Positions 22,054 through 49,670 of a DNA stretch of 64,000 nt are shown piece by piece. Source of the DNA: Desulfurobacterium indicum (GTDB taxonomy: Bacteria > Aquificota > Aquificia > Desulfurobacteriales > Desulfurobacteriaceae); the NCBI RefSeq assembly GCF_001968985.1, contig NZ_MOEN01000006.1:1-64000 (forward strand), read 5' to 3'. The translations under genes were made by a program, and so were the position numbers. The notes beneath the pieces were generated by a model. It ran no database searches, was not told where the DNA came from, and worked only from the letters and a program-made list of their open reading frames with translations. How positions within the stretch are numbered: position 1 is the stretch's first letter; each line of letters begins with the position of its first letter.

Positions 22054-22389
22054 ATGAAGGTTTTTGGTCCAGAACCGGAAGGAAAAAGGAAGCATACCCC
22101 TGTAATAGAAGCACCTGCGAAAGTAAAGAAAGGTGAATGGTTTGATGTTAAGGTTGTAGTTGGAAAGGATATTGCTCATCCGAACACAAAAGAGCACTGG
22201 ATTCAGTTTATCTCTCTCTGGGCTGATAACTTCATAGTAGGAAGAGCTACTCTTGAACCTGAAGTTGCCGCATCAGAGGTTACCTTTAAAGTAAAGCTTG
22301 AAAAAGATGCAGTTTTAACGGCTCAGGCTTACTGTAACCTTCACGGTCTCTGGCACAGCGAAGAGGTAAAGGTAGAAGTTGAAGAATGA
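22054..22389 (+). CDS. sor: Superoxide reductase (neelaredoxin/desulfoferrodoxin class)
   Basis: Reduces superoxide to hydrogen peroxide without making O2, a hallmark of anaerobes. The 111-residue one-iron form has the ligand set of the Fe(His)4Cys centre: KHTPVIE (His), HPNTKEHWI (two His) and the C-terminal CNLHGLW (Cys and His). No N-terminal rubredoxin-like domain is present. It is cytoplasmic. A GGAGGG is well placed before ATG 22054. It follows the FeS-assembly genes, consistent with repair and protection of clusters. Confidence 0.95.
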   Translation: MKVFGPEPEGKRKHTPVIEAPAKVKKGEWFDVKVVVGKDIAHPNTKEHWIQFISLWADNFIVGRATLEPEVAASEVTFKVKLEKDAVLTAQAYCNLHGLWHSEEVKVEVEE

Positions 22390-27617: not shown

Positions 27618-27650
27618 CCCTCCCTTCGGGGAGGGCTTTTTATTTTTCTT
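27618..27650. terminator. Intrinsic terminator with UUCG tetraloop
   Basis: CCCTCCC (27618-27624) pairs with GGGAGGG (27629-27635) around a TTCG loop, followed by CTTTTTATTTTTC. It ends the FadL-type transcript and overlaps the 3' end of the convergent bcp gene. Confidence 0.9.
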
Positions 27651-28110
27651 TTAATTTCTTTAATGTTTCTAAAACTTTATCAACGTGTCCTTTAACTCTA
27701 ACATTCTTCCACACATGTGCCACTTTTCCTTCAGGGTCTATTAAATAAGTTGTCCTTACAACTCCGTAGTATTCTTTACCAAATCTTTTTTTCAGCTTCC
27801 ATGCATCATAAGCTTTTATAATTTCCTTTTCAGGGTCACTCAAAAGAGTGACTTTTAAATTTTTCTTTTCTTTAAATTTTTTGTGACTTTCAACAGAATC
27901 TGGGCTTACTCCAATTACTACTGCATTAAGCTTTTCAAACTCTTTTAGTTTTTCTGTGAAATCTTCTGCCTCTTTGGTGCATCCTGGGGTGTTATCTTTA
28001 GGATAAAAGTAAAGAACTATCCATTTTCCTTTAAAATCTTTAAGGCATACTTCTTTCCCTTCATCATTTTTAAGGCAGAAATCCAGAGCAGTTTTTCCGA
28101 TGTCAACCAT
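27640..28110 (-). CDS. bcp: Bcp-type thioredoxin-dependent peroxiredoxin
   Basis: A 156-residue atypical 2-Cys peroxiredoxin reducing H2O2 and organic peroxides in the cytoplasm. Peroxidatic Cys is in FYPKDNTPGCTKEAEDF (about residue 44). WKLKKRFGKEYYGVVRTTYLIDPEGKVAHVW follows. The usual nearby resolving Cys of the BcpA type (C-x4-C) is absent, so it may act as a 1-Cys form. Four Cys in total are present. Confidence 0.92.
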   Translation of the reverse strand: MVDIGKTALDFCLKNDEGKEVCLKDFKGKWIVLYFYPKDNTPGCTKEAEDFTEKLKEFEKLNAVVIGVSPDSVESHKKFKEKKNLKVTLLSDPEKEIIKAYDAWKLKKRFGKEYYGVVRTTYLIDPEGKVAHVWKNVRVKGHVDKVLETLKKLKEK

Positions 28111-44859: not shown

Positions 44860-45010
44860 CGTTTCCTCCGGGTAACGTGGTCTGTGTTTAAAGATACTTA
44901 CTATTTTTCCTCTTTCATTGATGTTTGTCAAAAATTTGTAGTTAATTTTCTTGACAGAGTTTCTTTTAAGAGTTATGCTAATGATAATCTTTTTCAAAAA
45001 AGAGGTGAAA

Positions 45011-46207
45011 GTGAGGAAACTTCTTAGTATTACTGCAATTTTATTGATTTTTACAACCGGAAGTTATGGGGCTGTTTCTAACCTTGAGATTTACAGGGGC
45101 ATGTTTTTAAGAGAAACTGCTCATTTAAGGAAAACACCTCTGCATGAAGCGGTGTTGAGAAACGATTTTAATGAAGTAAAGAAGCTTGTTTCAAGTGGTT
45201 TTGATGTAAATGTTCGTGATGCTAAGGGAATGACGCCACTTGATTATGCGGTGGCTCTTGATGAGTCAAGAATCGTTCGATTTTTGTTGGATCACGGAGC
45301 AGATCTTAATCTTAGGGATTCACAAGGTTACCTTCCTATCCATTTTGCTGCAGAAAACGATGCCATTGATTCTTTGAAAATTATTGTAGAAAAAGGTGCT
45401 GATGTAAATAGCCGTGATCGTCTTGGATTTACACCGCTTCATAGAGCGGTTTTGAACGGTAATTTTGATGTTGTTAAGTACCTCATAAAAAAGGGGGCTG
45501 ATGTTAATTGTAAAAACTCAGGTGGTTATCAACCGATTCATTATGCTTCTATAAAGGATTATCCTGAAATTTTAAATTTCCTGATTTCTGCTGGAGCCAA
45601 TGTAAATGCTAAGAATTTTATGGGCTTTACACCTCTCCATTTTGCTGTTTATAAGGGAAACTTTGATGTTGTTAAGATTCTTGTAAATCATGGAGCTAAC
45701 GTGAACGAGAAAGATGTTCATGGCTGGACTCCACTTTTGAAAGCTATAATGAAGCACAGAGGCAAGATAGCTGTATTTCTTATTGATAACGGGGCTAATA
45801 TTTTTCTTGGAACCGCTCTTGGTGAAAAGCCGATCCATTTTGCTGCTGGAGAGGGAGAAATAAGTATTGTTAAGCTTCTTTTACAAAAAGGGGCAGATAT
45901 TAATGTTAGAAATAAAGCAGGCAACACGCCGTTACATTATGCTGTCTATATGAACAAGGTTAACATGGTTAAATTTTTATTGTCAAATGGTGCCGATGTG
46001 AATGTTCAGAATAAAGCAGGAGAGACGCCTCTTTACCTTGCGGCTAAAAATGGTAGTTACAGGATTGTGAAATTGTTGCTTGAATCGGGAGCCGATGCTA
46101 ATCTTAAAACGAAAAAGGGTCTTACTCCTCTTTCCATTGCTGCGATGAAAGGATATATTAATATAGTGAAGCTTCTTGAAAATCATGATAGAGCGGGGAA
46201 TATTTAA
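45011..46207 (+). CDS. Secreted ankyrin-repeat protein (11 repeats)
   Basis: A 398-residue protein starting at GTG 45011 (GAGGTG just upstream), with a signal peptide (RKLLSITAILLIFTTGSYG). Eleven 33-residue ankyrin repeats follow, each built on xTPLHxAVxxGxxxVVKxLxxxGADVNxK. They run from KTPLHEAVL to LTPLSIAAMKG with no other domain. It likely acts as a periplasmic binding scaffold. Bacterial ankyrin proteins next to peroxidase/catalase genes are known (AnkB/AnkA near katB), which fits the peroxiredoxin gene that follows. The partner is unknown. Confidence 0.85.
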   Translation: MRKLLSITAILLIFTTGSYGAVSNLEIYRGMFLRETAHLRKTPLHEAVLRNDFNEVKKLVSSGFDVNVRDAKGMTPLDYAVALDESRIVRFLLDHGADLNLRDSQGYLPIHFAAENDAIDSLKIIVEKGADVNSRDRLGFTPLHRAVLNGNFDVVKYLIKKGADVNCKNSGGYQPIHYASIKDYPEILNFLISAGANVNAKNFMGFTPLHFAVYKGNFDVVKILVNHGANVNEKDVHGWTPLLKAIMKHRGKIAVFLIDNGANIFLGTALGEKPIHFAAGEGEISIVKLLLQKGADINVRNKAGNTPLHYAVYMNKVNMVKFLLSNGADVNVQNKAGETPLYLAAKNGSYRIVKLLLESGADANLKTKKGLTPLSIAAMKGYINIVKLLENHDRAGNI

Positions 46208-46279: not shown

Positions 46280-46331
46280 TTGACATTGATTTGCTCTTTT
46301 ACTAATATTTCTATTGCAAATAATTCTTATT
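46280..46331 (+). promoter_or_regulatory. Promoter of Sec-peroxiredoxin gene with A/T dyad
   Basis: TTGACA (46280-46285) and TAATAT (46303-46308) are spaced by 17 bases. AATAATTCTTATT (46319-46331) just downstream is an inverted repeat (AATAA/TTATT), loosely like a PerR box, and could make the gene peroxide-responsive. The promoter is well supported, the regulator is a guess. Confidence 0.7.
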
Positions 46332-46350
46332 ACCAATAAGGAGGTGGAGT

Positions 46351-46968
46351 ATGGCTCTGGTAGGACAGAAAGCTCCTGAGTTTGAGCTTCAGGCGTATGA
46401 CCCAACAACAGACAGCTACACATCAGTAAAGCTTGCCGATTATGTTCCTAACAATGATGGTAAGTTTCTGATTGTATGCTTCTATCCGGCAGATTTCACA
46501 TTTGTCTGACCAACGGAATTGGCTGCGGTCGCAGCTATGCACGAAGAGATTAAGAAGCGTGGTGCTGAAGTAATCGCAATCTCAACAGATACGGTGTTTA
46601 GTCACCAGATTTTCTGCAAGGTAGAGCCTCTTATGAAAGATGTTAAGTTTCTTCTTGCTGCTGATCCGACAGGAGAAACAGCAAGAAAGTATGGCGTTTA
46701 CATGGAAGATGCAGGTATTGCAAGAAGGGGAAGATTTATCATCAATCCTGACGGGGTGATTGTTGCCGAAGAGGTTCTCAATCCACCGGTTGGTAGGAGC
46801 GTTAAGGAACTTCTCAGACAGCTTGATGCATGGAAGTATGTTTATGAACATCCTGATGAAGCTTGTCCTGCAAACTGGAGACCTGGCAAGACGACACTCA
46901 AGCCCGGTCCGGACATTGCGGGTAATGTTGGAAGTGTGGTAACCATCGATGAAATTCTTTCAGAGTAA
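46351..46968 (+). CDS. Selenocysteine-containing 2-Cys peroxiredoxin (UGA at codon 53)
   Basis: Reads as a 205-residue AhpC/Prx1-type peroxiredoxin if the in-frame TGA at 46507-46509 is read as selenocysteine. The TGA sits exactly at the peroxidatic Cys: CFYPADFTFV-U-PTELAA, where the family has FTFVCPTE. Before the TGA lies MALVGQKAPEFELQAYD. After it come VIAISTDTVFSHQIF and the resolving Cys in EACPANWRPG (residue 172). A strong ribosome-binding site (AAGGAGGTGG) precedes ATG 46351. A hairpin with a GGTC loop follows the TGA at the distance known from bacterial SECIS elements. It should reduce peroxides rapidly. Standard gene callers will start it wrongly at 46519. The selenocysteine machinery genes are not in the window. 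Confidence 0.9.
46507..46540 (+). promoter_or_regulatory. Bacterial SECIS element with UGA-Sec codon
   Basis: After TGA (46507-46509), 12 bases lead to stem GCTGC (46522-46526), loop GGTC (46527-46530) and stem GCAGC (46531-46535), with possible extension by flanking bases. The apical GGUC lies 17 bases past the UGA. In E. coli fdhF, recalled from memory, an AGGUCU loop sits at nearly the same distance. SelB would bind this loop to deliver Sec-tRNA. Confidence 0.85.
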
Positions 46969-47072: not shown

Positions 47073-48446
47073 ATGGACTTTCTCCTGACGCTATCCCGTC
47101 TGCAGTTTGCGATGACAGCCTTTTTTCACTTTATTTTTGTCCCTCTTACGCTTGGTCTTTCAACGCTTATTGCGATTATGCTCACCATTTATTACAAAAC
47201 GGGAAATGAAACTTACAAAGAGATGGCGAAATTCTGGACAAAACTTTTTGCCATTAACTTTGCTATCGGTGTGGCAACAGGTATTGTCCACGAATTTGAA
47301 TTTGGTATGAACTGGTCTGTCTATTCCCGTTTTGTAGGTGACATTTTCGGTGCTCCGCTTGCTTTTGAAGGATTGATGGCATTTTTCTTGGAATCAACTT
47401 TCATAGGTATTCTTATCTTTGGATGGGATAGAGTACCCCAAAAAGTTCACCTATTAGCTGCGTGGCTTACAGCTATCGGTAGTAACATATCTGCTTTCTG
47501 GATTCTTGTTGCGAACGGCTGGATGCAGCATCCTGTTGGTTCAAAACTTGTTGAAGGTCTTGCAGGGAAAAAAGCCGTTCTTACAAATTTTGCAAGCATC
47601 GTTTTAAATCCAGTTGCCGATACAAAGTTTATGCATACGATAACGGCTGGGTTTATCCTTTCTGCAATTTTTGTTTTGAGCATTAGTGCTTATCACCTTC
47701 TCAAAGGAAACAATATCGATCTCTTTAAAAAGTCAGCTTTTATCGCTATCGTGTTTGGTTTAATGGCTTCTGTTGCAGAGATGGGTATAGGACACGTTCA
47801 TACAATAGAAGTTGCAAAAGTTCAGCCCACAAAAATAGCAGCTGCCGAAGCTCTGTGGGAGACGAAGAAAGGTCCTGCCATTGCGATTGCTGCCTGGGCA
47901 GATCAGAAAGGTCAGCGCAACGTTTTTGAAATTCCTTCAATTCCGGGATCACTCAGTATGATGCTATACAATTCGCCATCTGCTGAGGTGAAGGGTCTTA
48001 AAGATCTTCAAAAGGAGTTTGAAAAAGTTTGGGGTCCTGGCAACTACATTCCTCCTGTAAACATTACTTTCTGGTCATTCCACCTCATGATATATCTCGG
48101 GATGTTCTTTGTTCTTCTCTTTGCTGTTGGACTTTTAAAGTTTAAGAATCTGGAAAACAGCAAGACATATCTTAAAATTGCTTTGTTCTCTTTGCCGCTG
48201 CCCTACATAGCAAACTGGCTTGGTTGGGCTATGGCAGAGGTAGGAAGACAACCGTGGATAGTCTATCCTCTTAACTGGAAGGACAATACTTCAGTGGCAC
48301 TTAAAACGGCAGAAGCCGTTTCAAAAATTACTAACTTTGAGATTCTCACAAGTTATGTGATTTTCCTCGTGATATTTACAGGTCTTGCGATTGCAGACTT
48401 TTACCTCCTTGCAAAATATGCTTCAAAAGCACCTGAAAATCATTAA
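47073..48446 (+). CDS. cydA: Cytochrome bd oxidase subunit I
   Basis: Quinol-oxidising, oxygen-reducing subunit of a high-affinity oxidase. The LSRLQFAMTAFFHFIFVPLTLGLS start includes the haem b595 His. GIVHEFEFGMNW, MGIGHVHTIEVAKVQPTKIAAAEALWE and the diagnostic GRQPWIVYPL follow. 457 residues, about nine helices, with a short Q-loop. GGAGG precedes ATG 47073. The oxidase protects an anaerobe from traces of O2 or supports microaerobic respiration. Confidence 0.96.
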   Translation: MDFLLTLSRLQFAMTAFFHFIFVPLTLGLSTLIAIMLTIYYKTGNETYKEMAKFWTKLFAINFAIGVATGIVHEFEFGMNWSVYSRFVGDIFGAPLAFEGLMAFFLESTFIGILIFGWDRVPQKVHLLAAWLTAIGSNISAFWILVANGWMQHPVGSKLVEGLAGKKAVLTNFASIVLNPVADTKFMHTITAGFILSAIFVLSISAYHLLKGNNIDLFKKSAFIAIVFGLMASVAEMGIGHVHTIEVAKVQPTKIAAAEALWETKKGPAIAIAAWADQKGQRNVFEIPSIPGSLSMMLYNSPSAEVKGLKDLQKEFEKVWGPGNYIPPVNITFWSFHLMIYLGMFFVLLFAVGLLKFKNLENSKTYLKIALFSLPLPYIANWLGWAMAEVGRQPWIVYPLNWKDNTSVALKTAEAVSKITNFEILTSYVIFLVIFTGLAIADFYLLAKYASKAPENH

Positions 48447-48464
48447 TCTGGCGGAGGTGTAGCT

Positions 48465-49670
48465 ATGAATTTTGATTTACAATCAATCTGGTTTTTACTT
48501 GTAGGGGTGCTTATTATCGCCTACCTTGTAACAGACGGTTTCGATTTTGGGGTTGGTATTTTGCATCCGTTTATTGCGAAAAATGACGTTGAAAGAAGAA
48601 CAATGCTTAACTCTATTGGTCCTGTATGGGACGGAAATGAGGTGTGGCTCATTACTGCAGGTGCGGCAGTTTTTGCTGCGTTTCCGGAACTTTATGCTGC
48701 ACTGTTTAGTTCTTTATACATAGCACTTTTTGTTGTTCTTGTTGCGCTGATAATGAGGGCGTGTGCTTTTGAATTTAGAAGTAAAGAGGAAAATCCATCA
48801 TGGAGAAACTTCTGGGATTGGATGGTGTTTTTTGGAAGTGCAGCTCCTGCTCTTTTGGTGGGGGTTGCAATTGGTAATGTTCTCGCCGGACTGCCAATAA
48901 TTAACAGTTTAACAAGAGGTGATTCACTTTCTGGTTTTGTGTACGCTGAAAAGTTCCCTGTTAGCTTTCTGAATCTTATCAATCCGTTTACAACTCACGG
49001 CCTTTACGGACTAATTGTTGGTGTAACGACATTCCTTTTCTTTACGCTTCACGGTGTTTCATGGCTTCTCTGGAAAACAGAAGGGACTATAACGGAAAGA
49101 GCAAAGTCAGTGGCTACAAAGCTCTGGTTTGCTTTTGTCGTTTTCTACGTTCTTTGTCTTGGTTTCGGTTATACGATATCTTTCAAAATTGGCGATGCTT
49201 CAAAACTTTCATTTTTAGGACTTCCTCAAAATCTTGTAGAGGCTATAAAACCTCACATAAACAATGGAGTTATAGAGCATGCACTTTTCAGAAGCATGCC
49301 ACTTGAGATTCTTATGATTATTGCAGCAGTTGTTTGTGCAGTTCTTTATTTCTTTTTCGTTCAGAAGTCTGACGGGAAAAGGGCTTTTCTATTCTCTGCT
49401 TTAACGGTTGCTTTTGCAACACTTGGTGCTGCTATTGGTGCTTATCCGTTTATGGTTCCGTCATCTCTTGGTGTTGAAAACAGCATTACCGTTTACAACG
49501 CTGCTTCAAGCACTTTGACTCTCACTGTTATGCTTATAGCAGCGCTCATTTTTGTTCCTATCGTTATTGCCTATCAGGTTTGGGCTTATAGAATCTTCCT
49601 CTTTAAGATTTCTCCGGAAAGCCTTGAAAGAGAGCTTAAGGCCGAAGGTGAAGAAGCAGAACTTTATTAA
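48465..49670 (+). CDS. cydB: Cytochrome bd oxidase subunit II
   Basis: A 401-residue structural membrane subunit. It begins LQSIWFLLVGVLIIAYLVTDGFDFGVGILHPF, with the conserved DGFDxGxG, then RRTMLNSIGPVWDGNEVWLI. It is about eight helices long. It has GGAGG upstream and lies 18 bases after cydA. Confidence 0.96.
   Translation: MNFDLQSIWFLLVGVLIIAYLVTDGFDFGVGILHPFIAKNDVERRTMLNSIGPVWDGNEVWLITAGAAVFAAFPELYAALFSSLYIALFVVLVALIMRACAFEFRSKEENPSWRNFWDWMVFFGSAAPALLVGVAIGNVLAGLPIINSLTRGDSLSGFVYAEKFPVSFLNLINPFTTHGLYGLIVGVTTFLFFTLHGVSWLLWKTEGTITERAKSVATKLWFAFVVFYVLCLGFGYTISFKIGDASKLSFLGLPQNLVEAIKPHINNGVIEHALFRSMPLEILMIIAAVVCAVLYFFFVQKSDGKRAFLFSALTVAFATLGAAIGAYPFMVPSSLGVENSITVYNAASSTLTLTVMLIAALIFVPIVIAYQVWAYRIFLFKISPESLERELKAEGEEAELY

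Follow-up and report, generated by a model that had tools for sequence, protein, structure and literature searches.

Selenocysteine (Sec) peroxiredoxins are enzymes of an established kind. One example is PrxU of Eubacterium (Peptoclostridium) acidaminophilum, by the account that PMC13188914 gives of Soehling et al. (2001), and the bacterial Sec-peroxiredoxin family (TxxU, PF00578) is covered by selenoproteome surveys (PMC1794560, PMC5029168, PMC13188914). A 2006 survey counted 12 Sec-peroxiredoxins, with five inferred Cys-to-Sec conversions, and credited the Aquificae with only two selenoproteins, from two families. In the 2016 survey, Sec-peroxiredoxin stood at 91 proteins in 78 organisms (PMC5029168); it is thus commoner than was assumed in the initial annotation of the present locus, which spoke of a few anaerobes. 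The bSECIS consensus comprises a small apical loop with G at the first two positions, 16-37 nt from the UGA (PMC13188914). Maintenance of the Sec trait has been ascribed to FdhA (PMC1794560).

For the Desulfurobacteriaceae, the literature searched had noted the Sec tRNA only (PMC4227106, PMC5441870). A tRNA-Sec is on record for Thermovibrio ammonificans and Desulfurobacterium thermolithotrophum (PMC4227106); among the oxidative-stress enzymes listed with the genome of T. ammonificans there is no peroxiredoxin (PMC5441870). No Sec-peroxiredoxin from the Desulfurobacteriaceae or the Aquificota lineage was found in the literature searched, the coverage of which is incomplete and does not amount to proof of absence. 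The enzyme appears to be unreported in this lineage, and the initial annotation was likewise aware of no case there.

The locus described here lies in a 64,000-nucleotide stretch of DNA (the window) on contig 6 of a 1.6 Mb Desulfurobacterium-like genome of the Aquificota, from a bacterium of the hydrothermal-vent type. Within the collections searched, this genome is nearest to Desulfurobacterium and further members of the Desulfurobacteriaceae. Sequence comparisons lead us to conclude, with high confidence, that the locus encodes a typical 2-Cys peroxiredoxin of the AhpC type with Sec at the peroxidatic position, UGA-53 being decoded via a downstream hairpin. The predicted antioxidant selenoenzyme is an addition to the Desulfurobacteriaceae, which are deep-branching anaerobic thermophiles; standard annotation would split or truncate its gene. 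The features of the region are:

46280-46308, + strand: promoter-like TTGACA-17-TAATAT upstream of the peroxiredoxin gene (consensus match only)
46338-46344, + strand: Shine-Dalgarno-like AAGGAGG 5' of the peroxiredoxin ATG (from sequence)
46351-46968, + strand: gene for the predicted Sec-containing AhpC-type 2-Cys peroxiredoxin, 205 aa with TGA read as Sec (frame, domains, conservation)
46507-46509, + strand: in-frame TGA, predicted selenocysteine 53 at the peroxidatic position (PADFTFV-U-PTE); invariant in the 19 Sec genomes, TGC/TGT in Cys paralogues
46520-46537, + strand: putative bSECIS hairpin with GGUC as its loop (46527-46530), a core stem of 46522-46526/46531-46535 and two outer pairs (conservation, covariation, geometry)
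46864-46866, + strand: codon of Cys172, the resolving cysteine (EACPANW), aligned with the C-terminal Cys of Salmonella AhpC
47073-48446, + strand: cydA, cytochrome bd subunit I; adjoins the peroxiredoxin gene in the window's genus only
48465-49670, + strand: cydB, cytochrome bd subunit II

The peroxiredoxin and its in-frame TGA

The initial annotation had described a peroxiredoxin that is intact save for a TGA at the position of the peroxidatic Cys. Our analysis bears this out, codon 53 being the sole stop within the 205 codons. The translation matches the domain profiles AhpC-TSA (PF00578, E 1.9e-35) and 1-cysPrx_C, and the TGA occupies the peroxidatic codon (T50-F-V-U53), giving the TxxU arrangement of Sec-containing peroxiredoxins. 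The catalytic residues Pro46, Thr50 and Arg126 and the resolving Cys172 are invariant in an alignment of 16 relatives; the C-terminal position of Cys172, in a CPANW-like motif, is that of the typical 2-Cys class (AhpC/Prx1 type). An AlphaFold2 model computed from the relatives' alignment (pTM 0.78, with low confidence for the C-terminal residues 174-205) points to an AhpC fold, matching Salmonella AhpC in a Foldseek search (E 3.8e-20).

With Salmonella AhpC the protein shares the fold, the PxxxTxxC/U motif, the Arg and the C-terminal resolving Cys, but it would have Sec for the peroxidatic Cys and it carries a four-residue insertion, VPNN, near residues 32-35. With the bacterial Sec-Prx family at large it has in common the TxxU motif, the PF00578 fold and a SECIS in the coding region after the UGA. 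Sec from UGA at the peroxidatic position is also the trait that links it to PrxU, and NF040737 (peroxi_PrxU) is its best NCBIfam match. However, the score of 223.5 bits is under the curated cut-off of 270, so that the protein was not filed under the PrxU equivalog; the Cys relatives match NF040737 too, and the host belongs to the Aquificota, not to the Clostridia. The score against TIGR03137 (AhpC) is also below the cut-off (178 versus 272).

An alignment search covering 136 Aquificota genomes, 22 of them from Desulfurobacteriaceae, recovered the form with the peroxidatic TGA from 19 of the 22 family genomes, spread over seven genera and falling in the same clade. Within this Sec clade the TGA is invariant and Cys never occurs at the peroxidatic codon. 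The TGA is aligned with the Cys of other peroxiredoxins: in the Cys paralogues of the family and in the outgroups the codon is TGC or TGT, and the hairpin described below is absent. Among the matches read from the 136 genomes, none outside the Desulfurobacteriaceae has TGA at this site. Three TGA-flagged peroxiredoxin matches from Aquificaceae (G036, G037 and G012) were considered as Sec cases and rejected, as they have Cys at the peroxidatic site and the TGA elsewhere. Codons on both sides of the TGA are under purifying selection, with mean pN/pS of 0.116/0.749 before it and 0.061/0.672 after it.

The hairpin and the selenocysteine machinery

A GCTGC-GGTC-GCAGC hairpin starts exactly 12 nt after the TGA, at the place given in the initial annotation (GCTGC at 46522-46526, GGTC at 46527-46530, GCAGC at 46531-46535). 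Counting two possible outer pairs, its stem has 5-7 bp. Seventeen nt separate the UGA from the GGUC loop, in agreement with the bSECIS consensus. The hairpin does not have the bulged U of the E. coli fdhF hairpin. A search of Rfam up to E 10 gave no family for the prx hairpin.

Among 17 distinct Sec sequences, 99.2% of the cells in hairpin pairs are standard pairs. The covariation score is 0.143 versus 0.057 for shuffled alignments, a value reached by none of 500 shuffles, and slid versions of the hairpin score lower. Two pairs vary on both sides, namely 15-30, where GU, GC, CG, UA and AU are seen, and 18-27, which goes from UA to CG. Since both join third codon positions (Leu57-Ala62 and Ala58-Ala61) and the changes are synonymous, the protein sequence does not account for the covariation. 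The folding energy of the single prx hairpin is not unusual (z about -0.9 to -1.4); the case for the hairpin is one of conservation and covariation.

The window's genome contains selA (617 bits), selB (374 bits, cut-off 242), selD (370 bits) and one tRNA-Sec (81 bits, cut-off 47) whose anticodon is TCA according to ARAGORN. Thus, selA, selB, selC (tRNA-Sec(UCA)) and selD occur together in the same genome. The selB model is matched by all 22 family genomes, in 20 of them above the cut-off. A full selD occurs in 21 genomes of the family, each time with one TGA, which lies at RASG-U-GAKLSP in every sequence read. The selD of the window's genome (L021, G000:C29:8804-9730, minus strand) is itself a selenoprotein gene. 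Three family members that have no Sec peroxiredoxin (G119, G132 and G134) nonetheless carry selB and a TGA-containing selD.

The selD hairpin, AGCCC-GGTC-GGGCT, has a stem sequence unlike that of prx; the 12-nt spacing, the 5-bp stem and the GGUC loop are the same. A covariance model built from selD alone missed the prx hairpin, as it is dominated by selD coding sequence, and its matches in the window were those of chance; a count based on geometry only was used instead. With the geometry taken from the selD of the same genome (TGA, 12 nt, five Watson-Crick pairs, GGTC), the prx hairpin was the sole match on both strands of the window, where first-order Markov simulations give an expectation of 0.005. 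In a mixed alignment of prx and selD, with 19 sequences, each of the six pairs tested is present throughout, five of them via two-sided changes, which mostly represent one prx/selD contrast and so comprise few independent events. A mixed prx and selD hairpin model finds both genes by construction, and its E-values are not independent evidence. AGUU replaces GGUC as the loop in the prx of G126 (L081) and in the selD of G128 (L119), one case each. This joint change of loop positions 1 and 4 (G..C to A..U) suggests that the two bases may interact.

Readings of UGA-53

A conserved, covarying hairpin, with a counterpart of like architecture in the genome's own selD, strongly supports the Sec reading first proposed in the initial annotation. 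Judging from the conserved parts, a SelB-like factor with Sec-tRNA(UCA) would bind the hairpin that lies 12 nt beyond UGA-53, and the codon would then be decoded as Sec instead of causing termination. If the enzyme follows AhpC/Prx chemistry, Sec53 would react with H2O2 or organic peroxides to give a selenenic acid, which Cys172 of the partner subunit would resolve to a selenenyl-sulfide. The latter would be reduced by a thioredoxin-like reductant, one candidate donor being the product of a thioredoxin-like frame on contig 35.

Insertion of Sec might take place only when selenium is available, UGA-53 acting as a stop otherwise, in what would be a selenium-controlled peroxiredoxin switch. Such dependence is inherent to SECIS-dependent decoding, and no close Cys paralogue that could serve as a back-up was found in the window's genus; nevertheless, neither a regulatory element nor a paralogue switch was found, and we consider a switch, which would add to Sec decoding and not replace it, to be unlikely. 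Far less probable is that UGA terminates translation and that the functional product is a short peptide from the N-terminal part, a 149-aa protein from a restart at TTG 46519, or both. A TTG-started frame is indeed open after the TGA, but its product would be devoid of the peroxidatic residue and of the first strands of the fold, while the 52 N-terminal residues of the peroxiredoxin are conserved and a hairpin with covariation at synonymous sites would be left unexplained.

The TGA is one base away from the Cys codons and might have come from TGC or TGT through a sequencing or assembly error, or through a nonsense mutation in a pseudogene. This explanation deserves hardly any credit: the same TGA is read in 19 separate genomes from seven genera, its presence in the 18 others excludes a sequencing error at 46507-46509, and purifying selection acts on both flanks; together these findings rule out both an error and gene decay. 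Decoding of UGA as Trp or Cys by a suppressor or a code change is just as implausible, since nothing specific favours it, standard Sec machinery and a SECIS-like hairpin are present, and, for both prx and selD, the only TGA found in the gene is the one at the codon of the catalytic Cys.

Cys paralogues, FdhA and gene neighbourhood

A close Cys paralogue was found in 14 of the 22 family genomes, alongside or instead of the Sec copy. In one genome the two genes stand in tandem and in the same orientation (L094, G133:C1:498569-499946), the Sec copy at C1:498569-499180 and the Cys copy at 499347-499946. The latter protein (L034) is about 82% identical to that of the window. Unlike the Sec copies, the Cys paralogues of the family have TGC/TGT, no hairpin and no VPNN, and Asn for Ala in the hairpin segment, which reads EIAAVNA as opposed to ELAAVAA in the Sec clade. 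This difference is in keeping with coding changes that may have accompanied the hairpin. In the tree of these sequences, the Sec copies are placed as a Desulfurobacteriaceae-specific clade, next to a Cys clade kept by most genomes. The simplest history would be that the gene was duplicated and that one copy then changed from Cys to Sec as the hairpin arose. The tree requires a minimum of two Sec/Cys label changes and has weak inner branches; it fixes neither a single origin of the Sec clade nor the direction of change. Coexisting Sec and Cys paralogues, once in tandem and with the hairpin in one alone, offer a clean natural comparison of what Sec contributes to a 2-Cys peroxiredoxin and of how a coding sequence can gain a SECIS. 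In the four genomes of the window's genus the Sec copy was the only member of this peroxiredoxin subfamily found. Besides it, a Cys peroxiredoxin of the Prx6 type and a Bcp/PrxQ are encoded in the window's genome.

The model for FdhA (formate dehydrogenase alpha) had no match in the four genomes of the window's genus and was matched in every other genus of Desulfurobacteriaceae. Matches interrupted by TGA occur in G123, G128, G120 and G133. A hairpin with a five-base loop, GGUCU, was seen in the TGA-interrupted FdhA genes at G123:C1:1333532 and G128:C38:17465 (L150, L149). In the window's genome only selD and prx rise above noise with the mixed hairpin model, which is blind to the FdhA-type five-base-loop hairpin; as it misses the Sec-FdhA of G123 and G128, the genome could still hold other selenoproteins. 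These searches suggest that the window's genus may keep the Sec machinery mainly for SelD and the peroxiredoxin. The stricter proposal, that the whole machinery serves the peroxiredoxin as its single enzyme client (plus SelD, itself part of the machinery), is a tentative one about which we have more doubt than confidence. If it is true, peroxide defence, and not formate metabolism, retains the 21st amino acid in this genome. Genomes in which the Sec trait persists with no detectable FdhA may thus be an exception to such a role of this enzyme (PMC1794560).

The initial annotation had assigned the gene to an oxygen-defence set with superoxide reductase, Bcp and cytochrome bd. Genes of these kinds are present in the window: cytochrome bd at 47073-49670, a Bcp/PrxQ protein at 27640-28110 (minus strand) and, by motif only, a superoxide-reductase-like frame at about 22054-22389. 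The linkage, however, is not family-wide, since adjacency to cydAB is limited to the window's genus; in other genera of the family the Sec peroxiredoxin has different surroundings and does not lie beside cydAB. A search for viral contigs gave no matches. Directly 5' of the ribosome-binding site of the peroxiredoxin gene is a short inverted repeat, CTTATT-ACC-AATAAG (46326-46340), possibly a product of chance, which is absent from the relatives' upstream sequences compared. Further upstream, positions 44951-46207 encode a large ankyrin-repeat protein.
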